A stretch of DNA of 64,000 nt, from the NCBI GenBank assembly GCA_016192135.1, contig JACPUR010000001.1, positions 1 through 64,000 of the forward strand, written 5' to 3'. How positions within the stretch are numbered: position 1 is the first letter of the stretch; each line of letters opens with the position of its first letter. The notes under the pieces are model-generated. The model saw nothing but the letters and a program-made list of their open reading frames with translations, was not told the origin of the DNA and did not search any database. The stretch is from Candidatus Tectomicrobia bacterium (GTDB lineage Bacteria > UBA8248). Of the stretch, positions 45,680 through 62,466 are shown in pieces. The position numbers and the translations under genes were made by a program.

Positions 45680-46772
45680 GGCCGGCTCGGCCCGCCGCGG
45701 CGGGGTGCTCATCCGGGCGGATGCCGGGCCTGGGGTCGGCCTGGGCCATCTCCAGCGGTGCCTCTCGCTCGCGGAAGCCCTCCGGCGCGGCGGCGCGGAG
45801 TGCGCGTTCGTGCTGAACGAGAGGGCCGGGGCGGCCGGGCGCGTCGAGGCCGCGGGTTTCGAGGCCCCCGAGGCCGCGGGGGCGCCGTCGTGGTCCGGTG
45901 CAGACATGGAGAGGACGATCGGCCTCGCCGCCCAGCGAGGATGCACTGCCGCCGTCGTTGACGGCTACGGCGCGGGGCCAGACTTCCTGCGCGGCCTCCG
46001 GGAGGGCGGGCTCTATGTCGCAGCCGTCGATGACCTCTGCCGGGAGCTCTTCCCCTGCCAGCTCGCCGTCAACGGCGGGGTGCACGCGAAAGAACTCCGG
46101 CCCCAGTCCTCCACGGGAGACACGGCGTTCCTGTTCGGTCCGGAGTATGCGCTGATCCGGCCGGAGCTCTGGAACGTACCCGCCCGCGCGGTGCGGGCGG
46201 AAGTTTCTTCCATTTTGCTCACCTTGGGGGGGACGGATGATTTTAATCTGATGCCAGTCCTCCTCCGCGCCCTGGACGCGCTTCCCGGGGTCTTCGCCGT
46301 GACGGCGATCCTCGGCACCTACTTCACGGATGGGGAGGCAATCCTTCGGGCGGCCGCCGAATGCGGGAAGAAGGTCCGCCTCGTGGAGAGCCCGACCTCT
46401 GTCCGGGACCTCATGCTCGGGGCCGACCTCGCGGTCTCGGCGGGCGGGCAGACGCTCTATGAGCTCGCGGTGGCGGGCACCCCGGCCGTCGCGATCCAGC
46501 TCGCGGAGAACCAGGCGGGGCAGCTGCGGGGCTTCGCCGGGGCCGGGTTTGCCCGCCTCGCGGGGGTGGCGGGCCGGGACGACGTCGTGGCCGGGGTGCG
46601 GGAGCAGGTCCTGCCCCTCCTGGCGGATGCCGCCGCGCGGGAGGCCATGGCGGCCGCCGGCCGGGCGCTGATCGACGGGAGAGGGGCGATCCGCGTGGCG
46701 GAGAGGATCCTCGGGGAGGTGTCCCCAGCGGCCGGGCGCCCCATTCCTTCCCGGCAGGGGGCGGTGGGGTGA
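45669..46772 (+). CDS. pseG: PseG-like UDP-sugar hydrolase
   Basis: This 367-residue GT-B-like hydrolase has the PseG opening VLIRADAGPGVGLGHLQRCLSLAEAL and LAVNGGVHAKEL. FLFGPEYALIRPEL, ILLTLGGTDDFN and the nucleotide-binding DLAVSAGGQTLYELAVAGTPAV follow. PseG cleaves UDP from the diacetamido-trideoxy-altropyranose to give the synthase substrate. The ATG at 45669 overlaps the preceding stop. The end overlaps the next GTG start by 4 bp (GTGA). Confidence 0.9.
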   Translation: MAARAGSARRGGVLIRADAGPGVGLGHLQRCLSLAEALRRGGAECAFVLNERAGAAGRVEAAGFEAPEAAGAPSWSGADMERTIGLAAQRGCTAAVVDGYGAGPDFLRGLREGGLYVAAVDDLCRELFPCQLAVNGGVHAKELRPQSSTGDTAFLFGPEYALIRPELWNVPARAVRAEVSSILLTLGGTDDFNLMPVLLRALDALPGVFAVTAILGTYFTDGEAILRAAAECGKKVRLVESPTSVRDLMLGADLAVSAGGQTLYELAVAGTPAVAIQLAENQAGQLRGFAGAGFARLAGVAGRDDVVAGVREQVLPLLADAAAREAMAAAGRALIDGRGAIRVAERILGEVSPAAGRPIPSRQGAVG

Positions 46773-48670
46773 AGCGGCTCATCCTCACGCGGCTCGACCC
46801 GGTGGCCGAGGACGGGCGGGCGGTTCACTTGGGCCCCTGGTCCCTGTCGGAGGCGGAGCACCGGAGCGGCGCCTGGAGCCGGTACGGATTCCAGCGGCCC
46901 TTGCCGAGCGAGGCCGTCGCCGGGACCGCTTCGGCCTTGGAGGCCGTCTCCGAGTATCTCCTGGCGGGCCTCCGCGAGGAGCTGAACGCGCGGCACCGGA
47001 CGAATCGCTCGATCCGGTTTTGGCGCATCCTCCTGATGCCGTGGCTCATCTGGCTGGCGATGTGTGTTTTCGAGCGGTATTTGCGGCTTCGCGGCCGCGC
47101 GGGAGAGGGCATCCCCTACGAGGTCTTCCTCTCCCCCCCGGGGGAGCGCCTACCGCTCGATTCCACGCGGCACTTCAGGAACCTCCTTCAGGACGATTCC
47201 CTGAACCGACTGGTCCTCACCCGGATCATTGAGGACCTGCGCCCCCCCGGGTGGGTCCTGAGGCCGGGGCCGCCCGCCGCGCCCGAGGGCGGCCTGGTGT
47301 CCGTGAACCGGCGGCGGAAGCTCGCTCTCGTCCACTGGGCCTCCCTGCTCGCCTCCAACCTAGGGCGGGTCCAGTTCTGCATGGTGTACGGGATGACCCT
47401 CTGGGACACGGCGGCGCTCGCCCTTCGCCTCGCGCTCCGGCCCGGCCGTAAGCTGGAAAGCGGGTCCGCGGGGCTCCGCTGGCAGTCGCCCCCCGTCCCG
47501 TCTCGTACGGAGGCGGCCGAAGGGCTCGAATCCGCCGCCGGACTGGCCGGGGGGGAGGGGGAGCGGTTCCTGCGCATCCTCGAAGGCCTCTCCAAGGAGA
47601 CGTTGCCTAAGACATTCGCCGAGGATTTTCCCCGAGAGGTCCGGCTCGCCCGCGCGAAGCTCGCCCTCACGGCTCCCTGGACGCGCGCGATTGTGTGCGG
47701 CCCCGCCCTCGGGGCGGACGACGAGGCCAAGTTTTACATCGCTCACATGGTGGAGCTCCGGGGGGCGGCGCTGATCGGCCACCAGCACGGCGGCAACTAC
47801 GGCCTCATGGAAACGTTCACCTACGTGAACCAGACCGAGTACCAGACGTGCGACCGGTACCTCTCTTGGGGCTGGGAGGCGCAGTCGGGGTACCCCCTCC
47901 GGGCGGTGCCTGCCGCCTCCCCCCTCCTCTCCAAGCTCCGGCGGGGCGGGGAGCGGAACGGGAGCCTCCTGCTCGTCACGAACGAGCCGCCGCTCTACAC
48001 CCAGGATATCTCCTCCAACCTCTTCCCCGAAGATGTCGAGAAATACAGGGAGGACCAGGCGGTGTTTGTCCATGCCCTGGAAGAGGGCCCCAGGGCGTCG
48101 CTGGTGTACCGCCCCTACATGAGCCGGCTCGGCCGCGTCTACGGCGAGGCGTTCATGCGGGAGCGTTTCCCCGGCCTCCAGTTGTTCAAGGGCACCCTTT
48201 CCCGGAACCGGAAGGGCTGGCTCTCCCCCTTCGTCGCTGGGTGCCGGGCGTGCGTCGTGGACCACCCGGGGACGACCGCCGCCATGACCCTCGCCGCCCG
48301 CATCCCGACCGTCCTGTTCTGGGACGAGGACGTGTGGCGGACCCAGGGGGAGCAGAAGCGGGCGCTCGACGGCCTCCGGGCGGCGGGCGTCTTCCACGGG
48401 ACGCCCGAGTCGGCGGCCCGGCACCTGAACGCCGTCTGGCCCGATGTCGAGGCGTGGTGGGGCGATCCCCGCAGCCGGGAGGCGGTGGATCGGTTCGCCC
48501 ACAGCTACTGCCGGTCGAACCCGGGGTGGATGAAGGAATGGGAGGCGCTCCTCGCCTCGCCGGACTCGCCCCTGTGGAGCGGTCTTGGCGGAAGCCAGGA
48601 GGCGGGCCGCGTCCGGAGCGGGGAGGGGGAGAAGGAGCTAGCCGGCGGCGGGGCGCGCCGGCGGGCCTGA
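46769..48670 (+). CDS. LIC12162-like putative transferase (GT-B type)
   Basis: This 633-residue protein begins KRLILTRLDPVAEDG followed by VHLGPWSLSEAEH. The centre carries RAIVCGPALGADDEAKFY, then ELRGAALIGHQHGGNYGLMETF. The QHGG-x-YG block and opening strand resemble the LIC12162 family of surface-sugar transferases first noted in Leptospira. The second half has NEPPLY, YRPYM and a nucleotide-binding-like stretch ending DHPGTTAAMTLAARIPTVLFW. It probably transfers a nonulosonate or other sugar to a surface acceptor. The family call is from memory of the motif and is moderate. Confidence 0.6.
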   Translation: MKRLILTRLDPVAEDGRAVHLGPWSLSEAEHRSGAWSRYGFQRPLPSEAVAGTASALEAVSEYLLAGLREELNARHRTNRSIRFWRILLMPWLIWLAMCVFERYLRLRGRAGEGIPYEVFLSPPGERLPLDSTRHFRNLLQDDSLNRLVLTRIIEDLRPPGWVLRPGPPAAPEGGLVSVNRRRKLALVHWASLLASNLGRVQFCMVYGMTLWDTAALALRLALRPGRKLESGSAGLRWQSPPVPSRTEAAEGLESAAGLAGGEGERFLRILEGLSKETLPKTFAEDFPREVRLARAKLALTAPWTRAIVCGPALGADDEAKFYIAHMVELRGAALIGHQHGGNYGLMETFTYVNQTEYQTCDRYLSWGWEAQSGYPLRAVPAASPLLSKLRRGGERNGSLLLVTNEPPLYTQDISSNLFPEDVEKYREDQAVFVHALEEGPRASLVYRPYMSRLGRVYGEAFMRERFPGLQLFKGTLSRNRKGWLSPFVAGCRACVVDHPGTTAAMTLAARIPTVLFWDEDVWRTQGEQKRALDGLRAAGVFHGTPESAARHLNAVWPDVEAWWGDPRSREAVDRFAHSYCRSNPGWMKEWEALLASPDSPLWSGLGGSQEAGRVRSGEGEKELAGGGARRRA

Positions 48671-48709
48671 TGTCCGGTTCGGGGCAGGGCACACGAGCGG
48701 AGGAGGGTG

Positions 48710-49987
48710 ATGCGGATTTCCCTGACCAAGGACATCTTCGGGAAGGTCGAGGTCCCTGAGGGCCGCCTCGCCGGCGCCTACGGCCCCCGCCGGCCGGAGC
48801 GTCCCGGCCTAGAGGATGGGGATCTCCGGGACCGGATCCACAACCCCATCGGCACGCCCCCGCTCCGGGAGATGGCGCGCGGGGCCCGGAGGGTCCTCAT
48901 CGTAACGGACGACATCACGCGCCAGACCCCCCTCTACCGCGTCCTGCCCCTCATTCTGGAGGAGTTGGCGGAGGCCGGGGTTCCGGAGAGCGGGGTCCGC
49001 TTCCTGATTGGGCTGGGGACGCACCGGGGGATGACGGAGGAGGAGATCGCCGTGAAGTTCGGCGAGGCCATCCCCAAGCGGTTCCCGGTCGTGAACCACG
49101 CCTGGGACGATCCCTCCGCCCTGGTTTCCATGGGCCGGAGCGGGCTCGGCTTCGAGGTGATGATCAACCGGCTGGCGCTGGAGACCGACCTCCTCATCGG
49201 GGTGGGGAGCATCATCCCGCACGCGACGGCGGGCTTCTCCGGCGGGGGCAAGAGCATCATGCCGGGAATCTGCGGTGAGGCCACCATCGAGGCGACCCAC
49301 TGGGCGGCCCTCGGTTACGAGATGTCGGAGATCCTCGGGAACTTCGACAACAAGGTCCGCGAGGCCGCGGTGCAGGTCTGCCGGAAGGCGGGGCTGCGCT
49401 TTATCGTGAACACGGTGATGTGCGAGGGCGGGCGGGTCTATGGCCTGGTCGCGGGCGACGTCGAGGAGGCCCACCGGGCCGGGGTGCGGCTTTCGCTCGA
49501 AGTGTACGGCGTGCCGGTCGCCGGGACGGCCGACGTCGTGATCGCCGAGGCCTATCCGACCGACATCGATCTGCGGCAGGCGATCAAGGCCGTCTGCTCG
49601 GCCGACATCGTCTGCCGGGACGGCGGGGTCGTCATCCTTCCGGCGGAATGCCGGGAGGGGGTCTCGCCGCAGTTCCCGGATTTCTCGCGCTACGGGTTCC
49701 GGGAGCCGGAGGCGCTCTACCGGGCGGTCGAGGCGGGGGAATTCCGCCAGAAGCTGCTCGCCTACACCCTCGTGGCCATCGGGCGGATCATCTCCCGGCG
49801 GGTGAAGGGGATGCTCGTCTCGCCCCATATCGGCGAGGCGGAGGCCGCGCGCATGGGTTTCCTCTGGGCCCCGACCCTCCAGGCGGCGGTGGACCGCGCG
49901 CTGGAGATGTGCGGCCCCCGCTCCCGGGCGATGGTCCTGCGGGAGGCCGGGGAGATCCTTCCCCTGGTCCCCGCCTCCGTCCCTTGA
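48710..49987 (+). CDS. larA: LarA-type nickel-dependent racemase/epimerase homologue
   Basis: This is a 425-residue protein of the LarA family. The key residues of the Lactiplantibacillus enzyme (His108, His174, Lys184, His200) all have counterparts three positions earlier: His105 in GLGTHRGM, His171 and Lys181 in IPHATAGFSGGGKSIMPG, and His197 in EATHWAA. Lys184 carries the pincer cofactor in the known enzyme, so a functional site is likely. The family racemises lactate and epimerises other 2-hydroxyacids, including sugar-derived ones. No cofactor-making larB, larC or larE is seen in the window. AGGAGG precedes the ATG at 48710. Its presence in a nonulosonate operon is unexpected. Confidence 0.85.
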   Translation: MRISLTKDIFGKVEVPEGRLAGAYGPRRPERPGLEDGDLRDRIHNPIGTPPLREMARGARRVLIVTDDITRQTPLYRVLPLILEELAEAGVPESGVRFLIGLGTHRGMTEEEIAVKFGEAIPKRFPVVNHAWDDPSALVSMGRSGLGFEVMINRLALETDLLIGVGSIIPHATAGFSGGGKSIMPGICGEATIEATHWAALGYEMSEILGNFDNKVREAAVQVCRKAGLRFIVNTVMCEGGRVYGLVAGDVEEAHRAGVRLSLEVYGVPVAGTADVVIAEAYPTDIDLRQAIKAVCSADIVCRDGGVVILPAECREGVSPQFPDFSRYGFREPEALYRAVEAGEFRQKLLAYTLVAIGRIISRRVKGMLVSPHIGEAEAARMGFLWAPTLQAAVDRALEMCGPRSRAMVLREAGEILPLVPASVP

Positions 49988-50014: not shown

Positions 50015-52042
50015 GTGAGAATGCTGTTCTTCGAGTCCTATTCGATCCTGCAGATCGTTTTTTTGTGGCGGGCGATCCGCCGCGCCCGGCGGATCTGCTT
50101 CCACGAGAAAATCTATCCTCCGCTGCGCCGGAGGTTCCGCCTCCCCCGGCACGAGGCCATCTGCCGGGCGCTCATCCGGCTGATCAACCGGGAGGTCGAG
50201 TTCGTCCGCCCGCCGGAGGAGTTGCTGCTCCGGCACAACTGGGAGATGAACAAGCGCGCCATCCCTGTTACGGACCGGATGGAGGAGATCCTCTCCGGAA
50301 CCGGCGCCTGCCGGGCGCTGCACTCCCTGCTCAAGGATGATGCGCTCGTCCGCTTCTTCCAGGGCCTCTATGTGAGCCACGCGGCCGAGCGCCTGATGTT
50401 CTACGCGGTGGGGAGCTCCCTCCGCGCGGAGGATAAGGGTTGGGTGCTGGTACCCGCCTGGAACGGGGGGGACCGCTACGCGGCCGAGGTGGAGGGCGGG
50501 GCGGAGGCGGCGCGCCATTCGGCGGAGGTCTCCTTCGTCAACGGCCTCCGGGAGGCGGTCCGGAAGCTGCTGATCTTGACTGCGGCCCTCGCTTATCCCC
50601 TGATTTTCGTCCTCTCCCGCCTCATCCGGGGGAAGGTGGCGCTGCGCCCGCCCCGGCGGCGGGAATATGACGTGCTGCAGCCCGTCCTCTGGGGAATCTT
50701 CGAGGCCGGCTCCGGCCGGATGATCTCCGGCACCAAGAAGGCCCAGGACGACAGCTACCTCCAGTGCGAGCGCCTCTCCCCGGATCGCATTCTTTATCTC
50801 TTCCGAAAGTGGAGAAGGAGCCTTGAAGAGGAGGCGGACCTCAAGGCGAAGATGGCGCGCAACGGCTGGCCGTTCGCCGACAGCCGCGACTTCGTCCTCA
50901 CCCCGTCGTTCCTGAGATACGCCCTCCGGGTCCAGTGGTGCGCGCTCCGGCTCCTGGCGGGGGGGCTCGCGGGGGGGGACGGCGCCGGCATGTGCGAGTC
51001 GGGGGCGCTCGCGGTCCGGGCGATCCTCCACAAGCGGCTCGAGATCGAGAACGTCGCCTGCAAGGTCGAGTTCGTGCGGGATGACTACAACGCGGGCCAT
51101 GTGATCGAAACGATCCTCAACAACCGCGCCGGCCGGCTCTCGATCGGCATCCAGCACCACATGAACGCCTGGGACTACCCGGCGCTCTCCTACGTCCACT
51201 TCGACAAGTACATCGTCTACGGCGACCTGACGGCCCGCACCTTCCGGCCCCACTGGGACCGCCTGGATCTGCAGAAGACCGGGCGGGAGAACATCGACTG
51301 GGCCGTCTCCCTCGTCCGGGACCGGGAGGCGGTGGAGCGGATCGCCGAGAGGCTCGACGCGCTCTACGGCAAAAGGCGCGCCCGCGTGCTTTTCGTCCTC
51401 CCCACTCGCAGGCCCCTGAACCGCCGGAAGAAATGGGACGAGCTTTACGCGGCGCTGGAATGGCTCACCCAATCCGAGCTGGAAATTCAGGTGTTCCTTC
51501 GCTTCCGGAGCCTCTCGGACCTCGAGGCTTCCCGCCTCGCGCGCTTCCGCGGCCTGGCCGGACGGGATCCCCGCGTCATCATCGACCAGGAGAACTTCAC
51601 CACCCAGGAGCTCATGGCCGCGGTGGACGTGACCGTGGGCAACACGGTCTCCTTCTCCATCTGGGAAGCGGCGGCCGCCGGGCGGAAGGTATTTTCCTTC
51701 GACATGATCGGCGTTACCCCCTATTATTTCGCCGGCTATGGAAAGGACTTCGTCCTGACGGGCGAGGAAGCGCTGCGCGCCCTTTTTCGCGCCGCCGTGG
51801 AAGGCCTCGCGGGCCTCGACGTCCGCTGGGAGGACCTGGCGCGGGATTGCAACTACCATGCCGACGGCGGGAACCTCCGGCGGATCCAGGAGGTCGTCGT
51901 GGAAGGGGTCGCGGAGGTGAACGGCGCCGGCGAGGGCCGGCGCGCCGCCGCGCATTCGGGTGGCGAGGGGGCCGAGCCTACGCAGGCCGCTCCGGCGGAG
52001 GAGCTTCGCCCCCGCCCTTTCCCCGCCAAGACCCAGCGCTAA
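50015..52042 (+). CDS. Large GT-B-like surface-carbohydrate protein, unknown function
   Basis: The 675-residue protein begins FFESYSILQIVFLWRAIRRA. It has a hydrophobic stretch near residue 190 (LLILTAALAYPLIFVLSRLI). The C-terminal half has features of GT-B folds: LSIGIQHHMNAWD, YIVYGDLTARTFRPHW, ARVLFVLPTRRPLN and VTVGNTVSFSIWEAAAAGRKVFSFDM. The last is like the nucleotide-sugar loop of CDP-glycerol and sialyltransferase-type enzymes. No family could be named with certainty. It follows larA by 27 bp and precedes the amidotransferase genes. The last ~40 residues are low complexity. It may be a nonulosonate transferase or polymer modifier. Confidence 0.55.
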   Translation: MRMLFFESYSILQIVFLWRAIRRARRICFHEKIYPPLRRRFRLPRHEAICRALIRLINREVEFVRPPEELLLRHNWEMNKRAIPVTDRMEEILSGTGACRALHSLLKDDALVRFFQGLYVSHAAERLMFYAVGSSLRAEDKGWVLVPAWNGGDRYAAEVEGGAEAARHSAEVSFVNGLREAVRKLLILTAALAYPLIFVLSRLIRGKVALRPPRRREYDVLQPVLWGIFEAGSGRMISGTKKAQDDSYLQCERLSPDRILYLFRKWRRSLEEEADLKAKMARNGWPFADSRDFVLTPSFLRYALRVQWCALRLLAGGLAGGDGAGMCESGALAVRAILHKRLEIENVACKVEFVRDDYNAGHVIETILNNRAGRLSIGIQHHMNAWDYPALSYVHFDKYIVYGDLTARTFRPHWDRLDLQKTGRENIDWAVSLVRDREAVERIAERLDALYGKRRARVLFVLPTRRPLNRRKKWDELYAALEWLTQSELEIQVFLRFRSLSDLEASRLARFRGLAGRDPRVIIDQENFTTQELMAAVDVTVGNTVSFSIWEAAAAGRKVFSFDMIGVTPYYFAGYGKDFVLTGEEALRALFRAAVEGLAGLDVRWEDLARDCNYHADGGNLRRIQEVVVEGVAEVNGAGEGRRAAAHSGGEGAEPTQAAPAEELRPRPFPAKTQR

Positions 52043-52058: not shown

Positions 52059-53174
52059 ATGCAGTTCTGCAAGCGATGTTTGGTCCCCACGACGCGCCCG
52101 GGCATTACGTTCGACGCGGAAGGCATCTGCTTCCCGTGCCGGGTGGCGGAGAGGCACGAGGCGATCGACTGGGACGCCCGGCGCAAGGAGCTCGAGAAGA
52201 TCGCCGAATGGGGGCGGGCCAACAGCCGGTGCGACTACGATTGCCTAATCGGGGTGAGCGGCGGCAAGGACAGCACCCGCCAGGCCCTCTTCGCGCGGGA
52301 CGATCTGGGCCTCCGGCCCCTGCTGGTCTGCTGCACCTATCCCCCAGAGCAGCAGAGCGACCTCGGGGCCTACAACCTCAACAACCTGATCTCGCTCGGC
52401 TTCGACACGATGGTGGTGGGGCCTTCGCCGGAGAAGTGGAAGCGGCTGATGCGGAAGGCCTTCTTCAAGTACGGGAACTGGGCGAAGCCGACCGAGATGG
52501 CCCTCTACGCCATCCCCCCGCGGATCGCGATCGCCTACGGCATCCCCCTGATTTTCCTGGGGGAGAACAACGCCCTGGCGTCCGGGGACCTCGGCGGGTC
52601 GCATACGGGCGATGCCAACCGGATCAAGTACAACAACACCCTCTCCGGCGGGGACCCGAGCGAGTTCCTGGGGGACGGGATCGCCGAGAACGACATCTAC
52701 TGGCACACCTTCCCCTCCGACGAGGAGATGGCCCGGGCGAACATCCGGATCGTCTACATGGGCTACTACATCATGGACTTCGACCCCTTCGTGAACACGG
52801 AGATCGCCAAGGCGCACGGCCTGAGGGCCCGCGACGTGAAGGAAGAGGACATCGGCGCGCTGAACCTGAACGAGGACCTCGATGAGGATTTGGTCCACGT
52901 CAACCAGATGCTGAAGTTCATGAAACTCGGCTTCGCCCGGGCGACGGACGATGCCTGCCAGATGATCCGGCGCGGCCTCCTCACCCGGGAGGAAGGCGCC
53001 GATCTCGTCCGCCGGTACGACGGGAGATGCGCCGACCGCTACGTGAGGATGTTCTGCGATTACCTGGGGATCACCGTGGAAGAGTTCTGGCGCCATGCGG
53101 AGAAGTTCCGGAACCCGGACATCTGGGAGAAGAACGGCACGGGGGAGTGGCGGCTCAAGCATCCGGTCGAATGA
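52059..53174 (+). CDS. N-acetyl sugar amidotransferase (WbpG/PseA-like), first copy
   Basis: This is a 371-residue enzyme with a four-Cys N-terminal zinc-ribbon-like motif (Cys4, Cys7, Cys24, Cys27), typical of the family. The canonical ATP PP-loop is VSGGKDSTRQ (residues 66-75). WbpG/PseA-type enzymes use ATP and ammonia to turn an acetamido group into an acetamidino group on a sugar. Ammonia comes from HisH and HisF paralogues, which follow directly. All key residues are present, so this copy should be active. Confidence 0.88.
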   Translation: MQFCKRCLVPTTRPGITFDAEGICFPCRVAERHEAIDWDARRKELEKIAEWGRANSRCDYDCLIGVSGGKDSTRQALFARDDLGLRPLLVCCTYPPEQQSDLGAYNLNNLISLGFDTMVVGPSPEKWKRLMRKAFFKYGNWAKPTEMALYAIPPRIAIAYGIPLIFLGENNALASGDLGGSHTGDANRIKYNNTLSGGDPSEFLGDGIAENDIYWHTFPSDEEMARANIRIVYMGYYIMDFDPFVNTEIAKAHGLRARDVKEEDIGALNLNEDLDEDLVHVNQMLKFMKLGFARATDDACQMIRRGLLTREEGADLVRRYDGRCADRYVRMFCDYLGITVEEFWRHAEKFRNPDIWEKNGTGEWRLKHPVE

Positions 53175-53196
53175 TCGAACACTGAGGAAGCACGGA

Positions 53197-53895
53197 GTGG
53201 AAAAGAAGAAAATAGCCATCGTCAACTACGGCCTCGGCAATCTCCAGTCCGTGGAGAACGCGGTGCGGTACTTGGGCGTGGAGGCGGTCCAGGTGGCGCG
53301 GAAGGAGGAGTTCGAGGAGGCGGACGGGTACATCCTTCCCGGCGTCGGGGCCTTCGGCGAGGCCATGAAGCGGCTGAGCCGCTCCGGGATGATCCCCTCG
53401 ATCGAGAAGGAGGTGCTCGGGCGGCGGAAGCCCTTCCTGGGCATCTGCCTCGGGATGCAGCTCATCGCGATAGAGTCCTGCGAGAACGGCCGGCACAAGG
53501 GCCTGGGCTGGTTTCCGGGCCGGGTGAACCAGCTCGCATCGAGCGACCAATGGCGGCTGCCGCACGTGGGGTGGAACGAGGTCGAGGTGAGGCGGGAGTC
53601 GCCGCTGCTCCGCAAGGTGAAAAGCGGCTCCACCTTTTACTTCGACCACAGCTACGCCCTGGAATGCGACCCGCAGTTCGTCTCGGCGACGTGCGAGTAC
53701 AGCCAGTCCGTGGTCTCCGTCATCCAGAAGGACAACATGTGGGGCACCCAGTTCCATCCGGAGAAGAGCCAGAAGAACGGGCTGCGGGTGCTCTGGAACT
53801 TCATCGGCCAGTTGGGCGGCGGCGCGAACGGAGCGGGCGGATTGAACGGGGAGGCCCGCCGCCCCGGCTTCATCCTCCCGCAGGCGGGGCCTTAG
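53197..53895 (+). CDS. hisH: HisH-like glutamine amidotransferase subunit
   Basis: This is a 232-residue class I glutaminase with the triad intact: Cys84 in FLGICLGMQ, and His187 and Glu189 in GTQFHPEKS. The oxyanion strand is YILPGVGAFGEAM. I start at the GTG at 53197. The protein matches the ~200-residue HisH plus a short C-terminal tail rich in Gly and Asn. In this setting, between two amidotransferases and next to HisF, it should supply ammonia for sugar amidination, not for histidine synthesis. Confidence 0.88.
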   Translation: MEKKKIAIVNYGLGNLQSVENAVRYLGVEAVQVARKEEFEEADGYILPGVGAFGEAMKRLSRSGMIPSIEKEVLGRRKPFLGICLGMQLIAIESCENGRHKGLGWFPGRVNQLASSDQWRLPHVGWNEVEVRRESPLLRKVKSGSTFYFDHSYALECDPQFVSATCEYSQSVVSVIQKDNMWGTQFHPEKSQKNGLRVLWNFIGQLGGGANGAGGLNGEARRPGFILPQAGP

Positions 53896-53926
53896 GGCTC
53901 ACGAACGGGGCGGGGCGGTTATCACA

Positions 53927-54799
53927 ATGCTGAAAAAGCGGATTATCGGGTGTCTCATCGTCCGGGACGGCATCGTCGTCCAGAGCATCAATTTCCGGTC
54001 CTATCTCCCGGTCGGGAGGCCGAAGATCGCGGTCGAGTACCTCAACCGCTGGAGCATCGACGAGATCGCCGTCCTCGACATCACGGCCGGGCGGAACGGG
54101 GACGGGCCGAATGTCCGGCTCGTGAAGGAGGTCTCGGACCGGTGCTTCGTTCCCCTGACCGCCGGCGGCGGGATCCGCAGCCTCCGCCACGTCGAGATGC
54201 TCATCCAGGGAGGCGCCGACAAGATCAGCGTGAACACGGCGGCGCTGGAGACCCCGGAGCTGATCACCGAGGTTGCCAATGCCTTCGGGAGCCAGTCGGT
54301 CATCGTCTCGATCGACGCCGTATCCGACGGGCGGGGCGGGCACCGGGTCTGGTCGTTCCGCGAGCGCCGGGCGCTCGACGCCACCCCGGTCGAGCATGCC
54401 CGCCGGGCGGAGGGCCGAGGGGCGGGGGAGATCCTCCTGAACTCGGTGGATCGGGACGGCTCGAAGGCCGGCTACGACATCGGCCTCGTCGGAGAGCTCG
54501 CCTCGAAGGTGGGAATTCCGGTGATCGCCCTGGGCGGAGCGGGGCATCCGCGGCACTTCGCCGAAGTGTTCCAGAAGACCGCCGCCGCGGCCGCCGCGGC
54601 CGCCAACTACTTCCATTTTACCGAGCACAGCGTCATCACGACCAAATCGTTCCTGGAGAGGGACGGCTTGGGCGTCCGCCTCGACGGGGAAGTGAACTAT
54701 CAGGACTCGGGGTTCGCCCGCACGGGCCGGATCCGGAAGAAGGACGACCTCGTCCTGGATGAGCTGCGGTTCGTCCCGGTGGAGCCCGACGAGCTATGA
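53927..54799 (+). CDS. hisF: HisF-like barrel subunit with catalytic Asp11 replaced
   Basis: This is a 290-residue HisF-type barrel. KRIIGCLIVRDG aligns with the usual KRIIxCLDVxDG, so the catalytic Asp11 is Ile here. Asp130 is kept (VIVSIDAVSDG), as are phosphate-binding blocks (TAGGGIRS, KISVNTAAL, NSVDRDGSKAGYD). It is about 37 residues longer than usual at the C-terminus, ending VNYQDSGFARTGRIRKKDD. Loss of Asp11 argues against imidazole-glycerol-phosphate chemistry and for an ammonia-channel role with HisH. The end overlaps the next start as ATGA. Confidence 0.85.
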   Translation: MLKKRIIGCLIVRDGIVVQSINFRSYLPVGRPKIAVEYLNRWSIDEIAVLDITAGRNGDGPNVRLVKEVSDRCFVPLTAGGGIRSLRHVEMLIQGGADKISVNTAALETPELITEVANAFGSQSVIVSIDAVSDGRGGHRVWSFRERRALDATPVEHARRAEGRGAGEILLNSVDRDGSKAGYDIGLVGELASKVGIPVIALGGAGHPRHFAEVFQKTAAAAAAAANYFHFTEHSVITTKSFLERDGLGVRLDGEVNYQDSGFARTGRIRKKDDLVLDELRFVPVEPDEL

Positions 54800-56046
54800 A
54801 ATACTGCAAGCGCTGCCTGTACCCCGAGAACCACCCGCTGAACCTGACTTTCGACGACGCGGGCGTATGCAGCGGCTGCCGCGTGCACGAAGAGAAGGAC
54901 GCGCTGGACTGGGAGGAGCGTTTCGCGCGCCTGGAGCGCATCGCCGGGGACCACCGGCGGAAGGCCGGGCGGGGCCCCGACTGCATCGTCCCCGTCAGCG
55001 GCGCCCGGGACTCCTATTTCATCGTCCACATCGTCAAGAACGTCCTGAAGCTGAACCCGCTCCTCGTGAGCTACAACAAGCAGTACAACACGAAGCTGGG
55101 CATCCGGAACTTGGCCTACCTGCGGACCCTCTTCGACTGCGACTACGTCATGAAGGCCCTCGACCCGAGGTTCGTGAAGCGGATCAACCGGGTGACGCTC
55201 AGGCGCATGGGCAGCATGTACTGGCATTGCCTGGCTGGGACCACCGTGTTCCCGGTGCAGATGGCCGCCAACCTGAAAATCCCGTTGATCATCTGGGGGG
55301 CGCACCAGGGCCTGGACCAGGTGGGGATGTTCTCCCATCTCGACGAGGTCGAAATGACCCGCAAGTACAGGAAGGAGCACGATCTCATGGGCTGGGAGGC
55401 GGAGGACCTCGCGGCCCTGGGCGAGGGACTGTCGGCAGGGGATCTGGAGCCTTTCGCCTACCCGGACGACAAGGAGCTCGAGGTCGTCGGCGTCCGGGGG
55501 ATCTACCTCGGCAACTACATCCGCTGGGACTCCAAGAAGCAGCACGAGAAGATGATCCAGATGTACGGGTATGAGTCGCGGGAGCAGATCCGGACCTTCG
55601 ACACCTACAATGACGTCGACTGCTTCCACTATTCGGGTCTCCACGACTACATCAAGTTCCTCAAGTACGGCTTCGGCAAGGTGACCGATCACGCCACGCG
55701 GGAGATCCGCCTGAAGCGCCTCACCCGCGAGGAGGGAATAGGCCTCGTGGAGCGCTACGCGGGAGCCGAGCCCTCGGACATGGCTTTCTTCCTCGACTGG
55801 ATGGGGATGCCGAAGGAGGAGCTGCTCGAGTGCGTCGACGCCCACCGGGACCCGACGGCCTGGGAGAAGGGCGGGGCGGGCGAATGGCACCTCCGGGACA
55901 GCGTCACGAAGCACCTGAATGACGAAGGGGTGGAGGAAGCCAGGCTCAGGAAGAAAGAGGACTGCCGTTTCGTCCTGACGCCTTCCCGGAGGCCGGGCGA
56001 GGCCGAGGATCGGTATGTGATCCTCGCGAAAGGATATGTGAATTGA
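54796..56046 (+). CDS. N-acetyl sugar amidotransferase-like protein, second copy with altered PP-loop
   Basis: This is a 416-residue paralogue of the 52059 gene. The Cys4, Cys7, Cys25 and Cys28 cluster and the overall layout are kept. The ATP loop reads VSGARDSYF where the first copy has SGGKDS, so the Gly and the Lys are changed. It is longer by about 45 residues at the C-terminus. It could act on a different position or sugar, or serve as a non-catalytic partner. Overlap with hisF (ATGA) ties the two in expression. Confidence 0.8.
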   Translation: MKYCKRCLYPENHPLNLTFDDAGVCSGCRVHEEKDALDWEERFARLERIAGDHRRKAGRGPDCIVPVSGARDSYFIVHIVKNVLKLNPLLVSYNKQYNTKLGIRNLAYLRTLFDCDYVMKALDPRFVKRINRVTLRRMGSMYWHCLAGTTVFPVQMAANLKIPLIIWGAHQGLDQVGMFSHLDEVEMTRKYRKEHDLMGWEAEDLAALGEGLSAGDLEPFAYPDDKELEVVGVRGIYLGNYIRWDSKKQHEKMIQMYGYESREQIRTFDTYNDVDCFHYSGLHDYIKFLKYGFGKVTDHATREIRLKRLTREEGIGLVERYAGAEPSDMAFFLDWMGMPKEELLECVDAHRDPTAWEKGGAGEWHLRDSVTKHLNDEGVEEARLRKKEDCRFVLTPSRRPGEAEDRYVILAKGYVN

Positions 56047-56103: not shown

Positions 56104-56679
56104 ATGACGGGCGATCCCGGCGCGCCCCGCCTGCTCGAGGGCGGGAAGGTCTTCCTGCGGGCCCTCACCCGGGCGGATATCCCCGTCTGGCACGCCTGGT
56201 TCAACTCGGCGGAGGTCACCGAGCACCTGAACAAGGGCGCCTTCCCGGTCACCGAGGAGGCGCAGGCGGACTATTTGGCGCACCTCTCCAAGAGCCGGGC
56301 CGACGTCCAGCTCGGCATCGGGGCGAAGGAGGGCGGGCAGCTCATCGGGGTCATCGGGATCCACAAGATCGACTGGGTGCACCGCCACGGCGACATCAGC
56401 ATCGTGATCGGGGACAGCCGGTGGTGGGGCAAGGGGGCCGCGACCGAGGCTATCGGGCTCATGGTCCGGCACGGCTTCGAGAAGCTCAACCTGCACAAGC
56501 TGACGGCGGGCATGTGGGCCACGAACGAGGGCTCCCGGCGGGGCTTCGAGCGGAACGGCTTCGTCCTGGAGGGCACCCTCCGGCAGAGCTACTTCCACAA
56601 GACGGGCTACGTGGACGAGTGGCGCCTCGGGCTCCTGCGCGCGGAATGGGAAGCCAAGGGGGGAGGAAGGGCCTCGTGA
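56104..56679 (+). CDS. GNAT acetyltransferase (RimJ-like)
   Basis: This is a 191-residue acetyltransferase. KVFLRALTRADIPVWHAWFNSAEVTEHL is the usual opening. WWGKGAATEAIGLMVRHGFEKLNLHKL holds the acetyl-CoA loop, and NEGSRRGFERNGFVLEGTLRQSYFHKTGY closes the domain (quoted here in pieces of the motif; spacing is normal). It is less like PseH than the 45200 gene. It may acylate a second amino group in the pathway. It starts 57 bp after the second amidotransferase and overlaps the next gene by 4 bp. Confidence 0.85.
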   Translation: MTGDPGAPRLLEGGKVFLRALTRADIPVWHAWFNSAEVTEHLNKGAFPVTEEAQADYLAHLSKSRADVQLGIGAKEGGQLIGVIGIHKIDWVHRHGDISIVIGDSRWWGKGAATEAIGLMVRHGFEKLNLHKLTAGMWATNEGSRRGFERNGFVLEGTLRQSYFHKTGYVDEWRLGLLRAEWEAKGGGRAS

Positions 56680-57467
56680 AGGTCGTCGCCACCATCGAGG
56701 CCCGCATGACCTCCAAGCGCCTGCCGGGGAAGGTGCTGCGGGAGTTGGATGGCGCCCCCATGCTCCAGCGCATCATCGAGCGGGCGGGCCGGGCCGGCCG
56801 GGTGGACCAGGTGATCCTGGCCACCACGGTGAACCGGACGGACGACCCTCTGGAGGACCTCGCCCGCCGGCTGGGCGCCGCCTGCCACCGGGGGAGCGAG
56901 GACGACGTGCTGGATCGGGTGCTCCAGGCGGCGCGCTCGTCTGGAGGAGACCTCATCGTGGAGCTGACCGGAGACAGCCCCTTCACCGACCCTTCCCTGA
57001 TCGACGACATGGTGGACTTCTACCGGACGGGCGGGTACGACTACGTGGCCAACACCGCCATGCGCCACAGCGCCCAGTGGGAGAAGGACCCCACCTTCCC
57101 CATCGGCACGAGCGTGGAGATCTTCTCGGCGGATCTGCTCGGCAAGGTGGCCGGATGGACGCAGGACCCCATCGACCACGAGCACGTGAGCTCCTACATC
57201 TTCGAGCGCCCGGACCGGTTCCGCCTGGGGGCCTTCGAGGCGGAGGGCAAGTGGGAGCGCTGCCGGCGCCCGGACGTGCGCCTGACCGTGGATACGCCGG
57301 AGGACCTCGCGCTGGCGCGGGAGGTCTACGCGCGCCTCCATCCCCGGAACCCCCGGTTTACGCTGATGGACGTCATCGAAGTCTTCGAGAAGGAGCCGGA
57401 GCTCCTGGCCATCAACGGCCAGGTGGTCCAGCAGCGGGTGTTTGAGCAGCGCCAAGCCAGCGCTTAA
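56676..57467 (+). CDS. SpsF-like cytidylyltransferase family protein, second copy
   Basis: This is a 263-residue enzyme with the nucleotide loop VVATIEARMTSKRLPGKVLREL. VILATTVNRTDDPLEDLA, RGSEDDVLDRVLQAA and VELTGDSPFTDPSLI follow. The GTG start overlaps the previous stop (GTGA). It is the intact relative of the frameshifted fossil at 40711-40832. Family members activate nonulosonates or make nucleotide-sugars from sugar phosphates; which applies cannot be told. A Gfo/Idh/MocA gene overlaps its 3' end. Confidence 0.82.
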   Translation: MKVVATIEARMTSKRLPGKVLRELDGAPMLQRIIERAGRAGRVDQVILATTVNRTDDPLEDLARRLGAACHRGSEDDVLDRVLQAARSSGGDLIVELTGDSPFTDPSLIDDMVDFYRTGGYDYVANTAMRHSAQWEKDPTFPIGTSVEIFSADLLGKVAGWTQDPIDHEHVSSYIFERPDRFRLGAFEAEGKWERCRRPDVRLTVDTPEDLALAREVYARLHPRNPRFTLMDVIEVFEKEPELLAINGQVVQQRVFEQRQASA

Positions 57468-58446
57468 AGCTGCGGTCATCGGGTGCGGCAACGTGGCCTC
57501 CCGCTACGACCGCCTGTCCGACGGCTCCTGGACCTCCACCCACGCGGGGGCCTACCGGCTGTGCGCCGCGACGGAGCTGGCCTGCGCGGCCGACACCGAC
57601 GCGGGCGCCCTGCGGGAATTCGGCCAGAGGTGGGGGGTGTCTTCCCTGTATCCCGACTACCGCCGGATGCTGGAGCGCGAGCGGCCCGACATCGTGAGCA
57701 TCTGCGTCCCGACGCCCCGGCACGCCGCCGTGTTCCATGACGTGTGCGCCTCCGGCGCGGCGGCGGTGTTCCTGGAGAAGCCCGTCGCCGCATCCTCCGC
57801 GGAGGCCCGCGGCTTTCCGGCGGCGGCGGCCGGGCGGCCGGTGGCCGTCAACTACTTCCGCCGCTGGAACCCGGCGCTCGCCGCGTTGCGGGAGGAGATG
57901 GCGGCGGGCGGGCTGGGCCGCCCGTTCCGGGCCACCGTCTATTACGTGAAGGGCCTGCTCGGGAACGCGTCCCATTACATCGATCTGATGCGCTGGTTCT
58001 TCGGCGAGCCGGCGAAGGTCCGGGCCTGGCGGCGGTTCGCCCATCCGGGCCAGGAGGAGGCTGCGGATTTCGAGATGGAGTTCCCGGGCGGGATGATCGC
58101 CGCCTTCCTGCACGTGCCCCCGCCCGGCTACGTGTTCCTGGAGGCGGACATCCTCCTCGAGCGCGGCCGGGTGGTCATCGGCCAGCGGGGCCAGCGGATC
58201 GCGCGCTACCCGGTCGCCGACGAGCCCCACTTCGGCATGTTCCGGATCCTGGCGAGCGAGGGCCGGGGCGAGGAGACCGGCTGGCGGAACTGCCCCCTCC
58301 GGGCGGTGGAGCAGCTGGTCGCCTGCGTGGAGCGGGGCGGGGAGCCCGCCTGCGCGCTGGAGGACGGCCTGCGGGCCCTCGCCCTCTGCGAGGAGATTCT
58401 GGATTCCCATGATGGGGAAGTTCTGACGGAGAGCGCGCCGCGGTGA
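57442..58446 (+). CDS. Gfo/Idh/MocA-family oxidoreductase (third)
   Basis: This 334-residue protein has KAAVIGCGNVASRYDRLSDGSW as cofactor loop, followed by the catalytic Lys in VFLEKPVAAS and the C-terminal sheet. The TTG start at 57442 lies inside the preceding gene. The TSTHAGAY segment after the loop is usual for members acting on UDP-sugars or sugar acids. It ends with a GTGA overlap into the aminotransferase gene. The pair may oxidise and then transaminate a sugar carbon, giving a further amino group. Confidence 0.82.
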   Translation: MSSAKPALKAAVIGCGNVASRYDRLSDGSWTSTHAGAYRLCAATELACAADTDAGALREFGQRWGVSSLYPDYRRMLERERPDIVSICVPTPRHAAVFHDVCASGAAAVFLEKPVAASSAEARGFPAAAAGRPVAVNYFRRWNPALAALREEMAAGGLGRPFRATVYYVKGLLGNASHYIDLMRWFFGEPAKVRAWRRFAHPGQEEAADFEMEFPGGMIAAFLHVPPPGYVFLEADILLERGRVVIGQRGQRIARYPVADEPHFGMFRILASEGRGEETGWRNCPLRAVEQLVACVERGGEPACALEDGLRALALCEEILDSHDGEVLTESAPR

Positions 58447-59732
58447 GCCAGAAGCTCGCCTTGCTGGGGGGGGAGCCGGTCCGCAGGGAGCCCTATCCCG
58501 TCCACTCGACCATGATCGGGGAGGAGGAGGAGCGGGAGGTCCTGGAGGTCCTTCGGAGCCAGCACCTCTCGGGCTTCTCCGGGACCTTCACCGACCGGTT
58601 CCTGGGCGGGGAGAAGGTCCAGGCCATCGAGAGGGCGTTCGCGGATTTGTTCGGGGTGCGGCACGCGGTCTCGGTGAACTCGGCGACCTCGGCCCTGCAC
58701 TGCGCGGTCGCGGCCACCGGGGTGGAGCCGGGCGAGGAGATCATCACCTCCCCTTATACGATGAGCGCCACGGCGAGCAGCATCCTGATGGAGAACGCCA
58801 TCCCCGTCTTCGCGGACGTCGAGGATGAAACCTTCTGCATCGATCCCGCCTCGGTGGAGGCCTGCATCACCCCGCGCACCCGGGCCATCCTCACCGTCAA
58901 CATCTTCGGGCACCCCTCCGCCCTGCACGAGCTGCGGGCCATCGCCGACAAGCACGGCCTCATGCTCCTCGAGGACAACGCCCAGGCGCCGCTCGCGGCC
59001 TGCCGCGGCAGGATGGCGGGGACCGTCGGGGAGATCGGCATTCAGAGCCTGAACTACCACAAGGTTATCCAGACGGGCGAGGGCGGCATCGCCCTCACGG
59101 ACGACCCCGAGATGGCCCTCCACATGCAGCTCAAGCGCAACCACGGCGAGGTGGTGGCGGGCCCCATGGGGCGCGAGGACCTTCCGAACATGGTGGGGTT
59201 CAACTACCGGCTGACGGAGGTGTGCGCGGCGATCGGCCTGGGGCAGATGAAGAAGCTCCGGCGCCTGACGGACATCCGCGCGCGGCTGGCGGCCCGCCTG
59301 ACCCAGCAGCTCCGGGAGTTCGACTTCCTCACCCCGCCCGCCGTGGCCGAGGGCTGCACCCACGTGTACTACCTCTACACGATGAAGTTCGACGAGGCGA
59401 AGGCGGGCATCCCCCGCGGCCTCTTCGCCAGGGCCCTCCGGGCGGAGGGGGTGAACGTCCTGGAGGGCTACCTGCGCCCCATCTACATGGAACCCATCTA
59501 CCAGAAGCGCTCGGCCTACGGGACCCGGGGGTTCCCTTTCCGCCAGGGTTCCTGGGAGAGCCCCGTCTCCTACCGGGAGGGCGCCTGCCCGACGGTGGAG
59601 CGGCTCTGGAAGCGCGAGGCGCTCGTCACGAACATCTGCCGGCATCCCAACACGGAGCGGGAGGTGGAGGAGTTCGTCCAGGCGGTGGACAAGGTACGCC
59701 GGAACCTCGACGAGCTGCGAGGGATGGCGTGA
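58443..59732 (+). CDS. DegT-type aminotransferase (Gfo/Idh partner)
   Basis: This is a 429-residue PLP enzyme. GGEKVQAIERAFADLFGVRHAV, EEIITSPYTMSATASSIL, LLEDNAQAPLAA and the PLP Lys in SLNYHKVIQTGEGG are clear. The C-terminal region around YMEPIYQKRSAYGTRGFPF is longer than in PseC. Oxidoreductase-aminotransferase pairs of this kind put amino groups at C3 or other carbons of UDP-sugars. The start overlaps the oxidoreductase stop, and its own stop overlaps the next GTG, so the order is tightly kept. Confidence 0.88.
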   Translation: MSQKLALLGGEPVRREPYPVHSTMIGEEEEREVLEVLRSQHLSGFSGTFTDRFLGGEKVQAIERAFADLFGVRHAVSVNSATSALHCAVAATGVEPGEEIITSPYTMSATASSILMENAIPVFADVEDETFCIDPASVEACITPRTRAILTVNIFGHPSALHELRAIADKHGLMLLEDNAQAPLAACRGRMAGTVGEIGIQSLNYHKVIQTGEGGIALTDDPEMALHMQLKRNHGEVVAGPMGREDLPNMVGFNYRLTEVCAAIGLGQMKKLRRLTDIRARLAARLTQQLREFDFLTPPAVAEGCTHVYYLYTMKFDEAKAGIPRGLFARALRAEGVNVLEGYLRPIYMEPIYQKRSAYGTRGFPFRQGSWESPVSYREGACPTVERLWKREALVTNICRHPNTEREVEEFVQAVDKVRRNLDELRGMA

Positions 59733-60877
59733 GCCGCCGGGAGCCCCTTCTTCTCGTCTACGCCCAGGACGCGGGCGGAGCGCGGGCCCTCGCGCCGGTG
59801 GTGCGCCGGCTGCAGGGCCGGCCCGGGTGGAGGGTCCGGGCCGTGACCCATCTGTTCGCGGGGGAGGTTTTCCGCGAGGCCGGGATCGAGGCGGCCGACC
59901 TGGCGGGGTGCGCCGGTGCGATCCCGCTCGATGGAGAGGGGGCCTCCCGTTTCCTCGATGAGGCGTCCCCGGCCGCCCTGGTCTGCACGACCTCGGAGAA
60001 CCGCCACGACCCCTCGAACGGGATGCTCATCGAGGCGGCGGGCCGGGCGGGGCTGCCCTCCTTCGCCCTCATGGACCACTGGAAGGGGTGGGGCCGCCTG
60101 CACCGGGAGCCGGGCGACCTCTCCTACCTCCCGGGCGTTCTGGGCGTCATCGACGCGCCCTCTTTCCGCCGGGGAACCCGCGAAGGAGTTACGCCGGATC
60201 GGATGGCGGTGGTGGGCCACCCTCATCTGGAGATCCTTGCGGAATCGGGAGAAGGAGACCGGGAGGCGCTCCGGGCCGAATTGGGAATCCTTCGGGGGGA
60301 TTTCGCGGTGGCGTTCTTCTCGCAGCCGGCCGTGGGCGCCCCGGGCGAGGGGCCGCTGGTCCGGCCCTTGCTCGAGGGGGCGAGGAAAAGAGCAGTGAAT
60401 GAACTGGCGCTCCGTCTCGCCCAGCTTCTGGAACGCAGGGGCCGCCGGTCGCGGTTTCTCATCCGGCTGCACCCGCGGGAGCGGGGCGGGGGCCGGCCGG
60501 ACCTCCGGCCCGCCGCCGAGTGGGCCGAAGAATCCATTCCCTCGCTCGGCCTCGCCCGGGCGGCGGACCTGGTCCTGGGCCTGGATTCGATGATCCTTTA
60601 TGAGGCGTGGGCTTGCGGAAAGCCGGTGCTATCCCTGCGGTTCGGGGAATTCGCGGACGTGCCGGGCGCGTTCGAGGACGATCCAGGGTTGCTCCCCTGC
60701 GTGGAGGGTCCGGCCGGGGTGGAGGCGTTCGTGGAGGAGCAGCTGAAAGGAAGGGCGACGCGGGCACATGCGGGATATCCGCTGCCCGCGGGTTCCCCCG
60801 AGGCCTGCGAGCGGGCCATCCGGGGGTTGATCGAGCCGGGCGGGCATGCGGCCCGCCGAGAGGAGGCCGGAAGGTGA
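59729..60877 (+). CDS. GT-B-fold protein of unknown function
   Basis: This is a 382-residue protein. LLLVYAQDAGGARALAPVVRRL resembles the first strand-loop-helix of UDP-GlcNAc 2-epimerases and glycerophosphotransferase-like GT-B enzymes. Later come DRMAVVGHPHLEIL, FLIRLHPRERGGG and DLVLGLDSMILYEAWACGKPVLSL, a nucleotide-binding pattern of that fold. It may be a hydrolysing epimerase (NeuC-like role) or a transferase. The GTG start overlaps the upstream stop and its end overlaps the next GTG (GTGA). It sits just before the cytidylyltransferase-synthase fusion, so it may prepare the sugar for that enzyme. Confidence 0.6.
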   Translation: MSRREPLLLVYAQDAGGARALAPVVRRLQGRPGWRVRAVTHLFAGEVFREAGIEAADLAGCAGAIPLDGEGASRFLDEASPAALVCTTSENRHDPSNGMLIEAAGRAGLPSFALMDHWKGWGRLHREPGDLSYLPGVLGVIDAPSFRRGTREGVTPDRMAVVGHPHLEILAESGEGDREALRAELGILRGDFAVAFFSQPAVGAPGEGPLVRPLLEGARKRAVNELALRLAQLLERRGRRSRFLIRLHPRERGGGRPDLRPAAEWAEESIPSLGLARAADLVLGLDSMILYEAWACGKPVLSLRFGEFADVPGAFEDDPGLLPCVEGPAGVEAFVEEQLKGRATRAHAGYPLPAGSPEACERAIRGLIEPGGHAARREEAGR

Positions 60878-62466
60878 TCGTCGCTGTCATTCCCGCCAAG
60901 GGCGAATCCGGAAGGCTTCCGGGGAAGAACACCCGGGAGATCGCGGGGGTCCCACTCCTCGTCCATTCGATCCGCTACGCCAAGGCGGCCCGGAAGGTGG
61001 ACCGGGTCTACGTGTCGACGGACTCCGACGAGGTCGCCGCGGTGGCCGAGCGGAACGGAGCGGAAGTCATCCGCCGGGGGCCCGAGCTTGGCGGCGAGGC
61101 GCCGGCCGCGGCGCTGTGCGTCCACGCCTGGGAGGCGATCGGGCGGGAGAAGGTCGAGTACATGGCCTTCATCCAGCCCGACCACCCCGGCCGGCGGAGC
61201 GACCTGGACCAGGTCCTCGATCACGTCCGGAAGAGCGCCATCGATTCCCTCTTCACGGTGGACCGGAACGGGAAGCGCAACGGCTCGCTCCGGGTGCTGA
61301 GCGCCAAGGCTCTCGCCGGGGATCCGTACCTGCTCTCTTACAGCCTGATGGACGATTGCGTGAACGTCCACACGCAGGCCGACCTCGCCATGGCCGAGCA
61401 CGAGCTCTCCCCCTACCGCCGGGAGATCCAGGTGGAGGGACGCAGGATCGGGGAGGGGCACCCCGCCTACATCATCGCCGAGGGCGCGTGCAACCACATG
61501 TGCGACCTGGGCATGGCGCGCCGGATGATAGACCTGGCGGCCGAGGCGGGGGCGGACGCGATCAAGTTCCAGACCTACAAGGCGGAACGGCTCACCCGGA
61601 AGAGCGCCGTCACCTACTGGCAGGGGAAGGAAATCCCCCAGATCGAGTACTACAAGCGGCTCGACCGCTTCGGGACGGAGGAGTACGAGGAACTCTTCGC
61701 CCACGCGCGGGAGAGGGGCATCGTCGGCTTCTCCACTCCGTTCGACCTCGACAGCGCCTCCATGCTGAACGACCTGGGGATGCCGCTGTTCAAGATCGCC
61801 TCGTGCGACCTGCCCGACAGCCGGCTGCTCCGGCACGTCGCCGGGTTCGGGAAGCCGGTCATCCTCTCCTCGGGAGGCTCCACCCCGGAGGAGATCGACC
61901 GCGCCGTGGCCACCATCTTCGAGACGGGGAACCACCAGCTCATCCTGATGGCCTGCATGCTGAGCTATCCCACCACGAACGAGAACGCCCACCTCCTGCG
62001 GGTCCGCTCCCTGAAGGAGCGCTACCCGAGCATCATCATCGGCCTGTCGGACCACACCGAGCCCGACCCCCACATGGTCATCCCCTCCCTCGCCTTCGCC
62101 CTCGGGGCGAGCGTCATCGAGAAGCACTACACCCTGGACCGGTCCATGACGGGATCGGGCCACTTCTTCTCGGTGAACCCGGAAGACCTGAAGAAGATGG
62201 TCGCCAACATCCGGCTGGCGGAGACCGTCCTGGGAAGCCCGAGCCTGGGCGTCGCCCGCCAGGAAGAGGCGGCCCGCAACAGCGCGCGCCGGAGCGTCGT
62301 GGCCGAGCGGCTCATCCGGGCGGGGGAGGTGATCGAGTCCTCGATGCTGGGGATGAAGCGGCCCGCGGACGGCCTGCCCGGCTGGATGATGGACCAGGTC
62401 GTGGGCAAGCGCGCCAGACGCGACATCGAGGCCGACGAGGCCCTTTCCTTGGAGGCGGTCGAATGA
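60874..62466 (+). CDS. Fused cytidylyltransferase (NeuA-like) and nonulosonate synthase (NeuB-like)
   Basis: This is a 530-residue two-domain enzyme. Residues 1 to ~185 are a short CMP-sialate-synthetase-like domain: VIVAVIPAKGESGRLPGKNTREIAG, VYVSTDSDEVAAVAERNGAEV and MAFIQPDHPGRRSDLDQV. From ~195 the synthase follows: AYIIAEGACNHMCDLGMARR, DAIKFQTYKAERLTRK, FKIASCDLPDSRLLRHV, VILSSGGSTPEE, IIIGLSDHTEPDP and ASVIEKHYTLDRSM. The C-terminal SAF domain has RRSVVAERLIRAGEVIESSML. In other bacteria these are separate genes that act one after the other. The first domain is somewhat short (usual ~225 residues). It overlaps the preceding gene by 4 bp. Confidence 0.85.
   Translation: MIVAVIPAKGESGRLPGKNTREIAGVPLLVHSIRYAKAARKVDRVYVSTDSDEVAAVAERNGAEVIRRGPELGGEAPAAALCVHAWEAIGREKVEYMAFIQPDHPGRRSDLDQVLDHVRKSAIDSLFTVDRNGKRNGSLRVLSAKALAGDPYLLSYSLMDDCVNVHTQADLAMAEHELSPYRREIQVEGRRIGEGHPAYIIAEGACNHMCDLGMARRMIDLAAEAGADAIKFQTYKAERLTRKSAVTYWQGKEIPQIEYYKRLDRFGTEEYEELFAHARERGIVGFSTPFDLDSASMLNDLGMPLFKIASCDLPDSRLLRHVAGFGKPVILSSGGSTPEEIDRAVATIFETGNHQLILMACMLSYPTTNENAHLLRVRSLKERYPSIIIGLSDHTEPDPHMVIPSLAFALGASVIEKHYTLDRSMTGSGHFFSVNPEDLKKMVANIRLAETVLGSPSLGVARQEEAARNSARRSVVAERLIRAGEVIESSMLGMKRPADGLPGWMMDQVVGKRARRDIEADEALSLEAVE

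Follow-up and report, generated by a model that had tools for sequence, protein, structure and literature searches.

A degenerate second WbuX homologue accompanies predicted acetamidino-sugar modules in several bacterial phyla

A second WbuX homologue with a degenerate ATP site is kept, across several bacterial phyla, in a four-gene set with HisH, HisF and another WbuX, and appears from sequence comparison to be an undescribed variant of the acetamidino-sugar systems. We encountered it in a 64,000-nucleotide stretch of a Candidatus Tectomicrobia bacterium contig (JACPUR010000001.1; hereafter the window). As judged from its gene families, the locus is a variant of the amidation system represented by WbpG/HisH2/HisF2 and WbuXYZ. 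At the family level its assignment as an acetamidino-sugar module is nearly certain, and the four genes very probably encode a machine that adds an acetamidino group to a cell-surface sugar. The new element is the conserved WbuX pairing, not the HisF. The four ORFs overlap or almost abut, with the ATG of the second WbuX overlapping the HisF stop:

52059-53174, plus strand: WbuX1, N-acetyl sugar amidotransferase (TIGR03573, 316 bits; cut-off 203)
53197-53895, plus strand: HisH/WbuY-type glutaminase (TIGR01855, 222 bits; cut-off 105), GTG start inferred
53927-54799, plus strand: HisF/WbuZ-type barrel (WbuZ TIGR03572, 259.9 bits; cut-off 299.7)
54796-56046, plus strand: WbuX2, second amidotransferase homologue (TIGR03573, 326 bits; cut-off 203)

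Both WbuX proteins pass the curated cut-off of TIGR03573 over its full length, and the four ligands of the Cys4 zinc motif CxxC...CxxC (C4, C7, C24/25 and C27/28) are invariant across all module WbuX1 and WbuX2 sequences. WbuX1, which matches PDB entry 8wex with an E value of 9.5e-39, carries the PP-loop SGGKDS at residues 67-72 (52257-52274) and an intact Glu in its GEN motif. In WbuX2 the PP-loop reads SGARDS at residues 68-73 (54997-55014) and the GEH/GEN motif has become GAH (55297-55305). The different PP-loops reported in the initial annotation are therefore located in these two ORFs, and its statement that HisH has an intact triad also holds, the Cys motif GICLG and the His-Glu motif FHPEK both being present.

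WbuX, HisH and HisF together form a known acetamidino-sugar set, and the functions of WbpG and WbuX are summarised in PMC10607449. The window locus resembles WbpG/HisH2/HisF2 of P. aeruginosa O5 and WbuX/WbuY/WbuZ of E. coli O145 in its three families, in its setting within a surface-sugar cluster, and in having a second HisF that lacks Asp11 and comes with its own HisH; NCBIfam models for this type of system are TIGR03573, TIGR03572 and NF038364. Unlike those systems, the module has two WbuX genes, the second with a degenerate PP-loop and a C-terminal extension, and is linked to a cytidylyltransferase and to a different acetyltransferase family. The sole solved relative, LpNASAT of Legionella pneumophila (PDB 8WEX; PMC10607449), which crystallises as a dimer, shares the Cys4 zinc motif with WbuX2 and aligns to it by fold at 26% identity, but has SGGKDS and the conserved Glu where WbuX2 has SGARDS and GAH. 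Similar gene types stand in the Legionella Sg6 O-antigen cluster, where the genes Lp6_764-769 (PMC3694923) encode, one after another, a glutamate-1-semialdehyde aminomutase-like protein, an acylneuraminate cytidylyltransferase, an acetyltransferase, HisF, HisH and an LPS protein; there is one HisF/HisH set there, and the passage describing it does not report two WbuX.

The order WbuX1-HisH-HisF-WbuX2, which the initial annotation had proposed looking for elsewhere, recurs in ten loci besides the window. The eleven module loci come from the window genome, Alphaproteobacteria, Cyanobacteria (among them Spirulina sp.), Myxococcota (among them a Polyangiaceae MAG) and one MAG labelled Patescibacteria, which has a single HisF-family match in its genome and may be mis-binned. 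The arrangement varies slightly: WbuX2 is transcribed divergently from the other three genes in the Polyangiaceae MAG, and HisH and HisF lie about 1.9 kb apart in locus L012. A twelfth WbuX2 (L084) adjoins HisH, HisF and an SGGKDS WbuX of a different type, and L011 holds three WbuX genes. In surveys that assigned clade membership by score, identity and tree, and whose counts are not an exhaustive census, the WbuX2 clade was present in four and the WbuX1 clade in three of 385 alphaproteobacterial genomes, all three also carrying WbuX2, and both clades occurred in the same two of 386 cyanobacterial genomes; when pooled, six genomes have WbuX2 and five have WbuX1, with WbuX2 in 5/5 WbuX1 carriers. 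A plasmid search with WbuX2 returned no relative above 34% identity. We found no description of paired WbuX in the open-access literature searched, which is weak evidence of absence.

In the tree, WbuX1 (11 sequences) and WbuX2 (12 sequences) each form one clade with UFBoot 100, and because both clades are so supported and the set recurs in ten other loci, the four-gene association goes beyond chance. WbuX2 is nested in a wider clade (UFBoot 100), where most of the other members stand behind HisF in a HisH-HisF-WbuX arrangement, and its sister group contains four in-frame HisF-WbuX fusions (L088, L092, L094 and L100) with linkers of roughly 45-60 residues. Such naturally occurring fusions are evidence for joint action of barrel and amidotransferase. 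In L108 (1-5211) two WbuX genes, both SGGKDS, surround two HisH-HisF sets (X-H-F-H-F-X). This arrangement is a possible ancestor type of the module, which could then have arisen as one HisHF came to be shared and one ATP site decayed.

Degeneracy of the ATP site is a property of the whole WbuX2 clade. Alignment columns give SGGKDS in 29/29 classical WbuX and 11/11 WbuX1 but in 0/12 WbuX2, which display six different forms: SGARDS or SGARDT (eight together), SGGRDS, TGAQDS, TGCGDS and YGGGDS. The Lys is lost in every WbuX2, and the first Ser and third Gly also vary, although all three positions are fixed in all other WbuX examined. The invariant family Glu (GEH/GEN) is likewise present in 29/29 classical and 11/11 WbuX1 sequences and in only one of the twelve WbuX2 (L014). 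By the SGGxDS motif as stated in PMC10607449, which the window WbuX1 and all 11 module WbuX1 contain, the window WbuX2 and 11 of its 12 clade members depart (L085 has SGGRDS), so we file WbuX2 as a divergent family homologue rather than an active NASAT. No WbuX2 was found as the sole WbuX; an adjacent SGGKDS WbuX accompanies all twelve.

Despite this degeneracy, none of the other three module proteins is as well conserved as WbuX2, whose mean pairwise identity over the 11 loci is 0.547, as against 0.470 for WbuX1, 0.430 for HisH and 0.405 for HisF, and we reject on these values the idea that it is a random pseudogene. It keeps the Cys4 ligands together with W244, H283 and D284, and has a conserved C-terminal extension past the TIGR03573 region. 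The AlphaFold2 model of WbuX2 (mean pLDDT 86, pTM 0.87) has 8wex as its nearest PDB structure (TM 0.74/0.81), followed weakly by other PP-loop enzymes.

The HisF is less distinctive. Alignment to T. maritima HisF bears out the reading that Ile occupies position 11 while the features of the ammonia barrel are kept (R5, E46, D98, K99, D130 and E167); the catalytic pair of a histidine HisF, Asp11 and Asp130, is thus reduced to Asp130. The best model is WbuZ (259.9 bits), ahead of hisF TIGR00735 (236.0 bits; cut-off 294.6), and since its score lies below the WbuZ cut-off of 299.7 we call the protein WbuZ-like rather than a strict WbuZ. In position it behaves as a WbuZ/HisF2, being the genome's second HisF and adjoining HisH and WbuX. 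Most module HisF, though not all, share a tail of some 40 residues at the C terminus (from 54674 in the window).

Compared with the histidine HisH-HisF pair (imidazole glycerol phosphate synthase), the module retains a glutaminase and a barrel with the ammonia-gate and interface residues, but its HisF lacks Asp11 and authentic histidine genes lie elsewhere. The objection that this might be the only hisF falls away because a separate set is located on contig C17, with hisH at C17:264860-265480 and hisA and hisF at C17:266283-267709; of the first seven genomes in which the module was recognised, six likewise have separate his genes. Loss of Asp11 is not a special feature of the locus, a view we tried and rejected: among 35 WbuZ-type HisF (12 from modules and 23 classical, from single-WbuX loci) it is absent in all 35, and the genome's own histidine HisF carries it. 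R5, E46 and E167 occur in 35/35 of these proteins and K99 in 32, with Arg in the other three. The proposal of a HisHF serving as an ammonia source for amidotransferases thus gains support from the family-wide loss of Asp11 and the separate his genes, at the level of sequence; its implied peculiarity to this locus does not stand, the same function having already been proposed for WbuYZ/HisH2-HisF2. Module HisF from L012, L013 and L097 have all lost N103 (to Arg or Asp), and in that of L097 position 130 is additionally Pro; this further erosion looks as though the constraints of imidazole glycerol phosphate synthase were gone.

The sequence itself shows the gene identities, motifs, conservation, pairing and linkage, and from these we infer the ammonia flow, the heterodimer, the choice of catalytic subunit and the sugar in the following scheme. 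HisH would hydrolyse glutamine and ammonia would pass through the HisF barrel, whose gate is kept and whose imidazole-glycerol-phosphate synthase activity we presume lost because Asp11 is missing. WbuX1, the likely catalytic subunit, would use ATP to activate the sugar N-acetyl group for conversion into an acetamidino group. WbuX2, which descends from the clade of WbuX that follows HisF and is fused to it in some genomes, would most likely form a heterodimer with WbuX1, serving either to dock HisHF or to hand ammonia or substrate to WbuX1.

We lean towards WbuX1 as the catalyst and WbuX2 as its obligate, ATP-site-degenerate partner, and regard this as somewhat probable. More tentatively, we propose a new sugar amidotransferase architecture: the two WbuX would be obligate partners in a heteromer, and a conserved paralogue, stripped of its ATP chemistry, would have become the dedicated HisHF-docking or ammonia-delivery subunit that serves the catalytic WbuX. 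The initial annotation had offered two amidinations of one sugar or a catalytic/regulatory pair, and the degenerate PP-loop in 12/12 WbuX2, the loss of Glu in 11/12 and the absence of any solitary WbuX2 favour catalytic and auxiliary roles. Strong conservation of WbuX2, including W244, H283 and D284, would also fit an active enzyme, and WbuX1 has itself lost family residues (240 and 282-283). The main rival reading has two independent amidotransferases drawing on one HisHF, with SGARDS as a functional variant and different N-acetyl groups as targets, whether both on a single diamino sugar or each on a sugar of its own; we consider this possible, if rather doubtful. In PP-loop enzymes at large the residue at x in SGGxDS is not fixed, so Arg in the WbuX2 loop need not abolish ATP use, and SGARDS retains the Asp and Ser. 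Different substrates would also suit the retention by WbuX2 of the Cys4 ligands plus W244, H283 and D284, the latter three lacking in WbuX1. The two intact PP-loops and two HisHF sets of L108 make two amidinations in one locus plausible, three WbuX stand in L011, and the NeuB-type and second GNAT genes of the window make several N-acetyl groups likely. Such independence is harder to reconcile with Ser, Gly and Lys positions that vary in WbuX2 and are fixed in other WbuX, with a Glu that all but one WbuX2 have lost, and with a protein that in no locus examined was the only WbuX.

Conservation in spite of the degenerate ATP site, and of the C-terminal extension with it, could also reflect a changed enzyme whose reaction is ATP-independent, for instance a hydrolysis, an acyl transfer or a further modification of the same sugar. 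We think this unlikely, as the sequence holds no positive sign of other chemistry and the nearest fold is the amidotransferase 8wex. Decay of the PP-loop is what would be expected of an ordinary duplication, with a classical WbuXYZ set beside a non-functional WbuX copy; the same clade and arrangement in several phyla, the co-occurrence with WbuX1 and the top rank of WbuX2 in conservation make this very improbable, and the conservation already goes most of the way to refuting it.

An argument from complementary losses, in which WbuX1 lacks the Trp/His-Asp side and WbuX2 the ATP side of a shared active site, proved weaker than it looked. Relative to the family, WbuX1 has Asp for Trp at 240 and Asn-Gln for His-Asp at 282-283. 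The same signature, with Asn-Gln at 282-283 and an acidic residue at 240, occurs in genes on two viral contigs, L160 and L164, which branch next to WbuX1 outside the module crown and whose neighbourhoods, over 6 kb, contain neither WbuX2 nor HisHF; because these genes stand alone the argument is weakened, and the WbuX1 type probably works without WbuX2. Asn-Gln may instead mark a substrate subfamily. WbuX homologues are present on 43 IMG/VR viral contigs altogether (L125-L167), in many cases close to a HisF homologue; these contigs may hold phage-borne surface-sugar genes or be mis-called host contigs. With a search pattern that allowed A and R, the motif was readable in 41 of the 43 and was SGGKD[ST] in all.

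Amidotransferase structure and function are little known (PMC10607449), and so is the route of ammonia from HisH2-HisF2 to the sugar amidotransferase. The degenerate WbuX pair and the natural HisF-WbuX fusions offer a handle by which a HisHF-docking partner could be separated from a chemistry partner. The module also defines a transferable acetamidino-sugar cassette, in which annotation pipelines would call two equal amidotransferases.

Further sugar genes follow directly downstream:

56104-56679, plus strand: GNAT N-acetyltransferase (PF13302, 93 bits)
56682-57467 (start approximate), plus strand: cytidylyltransferase, CTP_transf_3, KdsB/SpsF-like (PF02348, 99.5 bits)
57442-58446 (start approximate), plus strand: Gfo/Idh/MocA oxidoreductase (PF01408)
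58443-59732, plus strand: DegT-family aminotransferase (PF01041, 284 bits)
59741-60877 (start approximate), plus strand: protein without a Pfam or NCBIfam match, recurring weakly in L009, L010 and L083

The WbpB-WbpE-WbpD-WbpG pathway oxidises, transaminates, acetylates and amidinates, following a Gfo/Idh, DegT and acetyltransferase logic, and the order of chemistry in the window cassette resembles it. The N-acetyl group would be supplied upstream of amidination by the Gfo/Idh oxidoreductase (WbpB-like hydroxyl oxidation), the DegT protein (WbpE-like transamination) and the GNAT enzyme, to which a cytidylyltransferase gene is linked. DegT homologues above 340 bits occur at 6/11 module loci and 0/25 classical loci (Fisher p 0.0002, approximate only because locus lengths differ), and a Gfo/Idh homologue is near 6/11 and 1/25, respectively. 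Cytidylyltransferase homologues are found in L009, L011, L013, L083 and L085, and GNAT homologues are clear in L011 and L085 and weak in L009 and L083.

The window also contains NeuB-type genes and a second GNAT gene, and the former point to a putative product sugar of the nonulosonic or another ulosonic acid type. A single ORF at 60607-62466 combines a cytidylyltransferase domain with NeuB and SAF domains, and at 62506-63903 a GT2 glycosyltransferase is joined to a cytidylyltransferase-like domain. Two long ORFs of 633 and 675 aa (46769-48670 and 50015-52042) have no Pfam match and no convincing similarity to each other (BLASTP E 0.09), and are possibly glycosyltransferase-like. At 48707-49987, inside the surface-sugar cluster, lies a homologue of LarA-type nickel-pincer racemases, whose best model is the LarAH6 malate racemase (288 bits, below the cut-off of 500).
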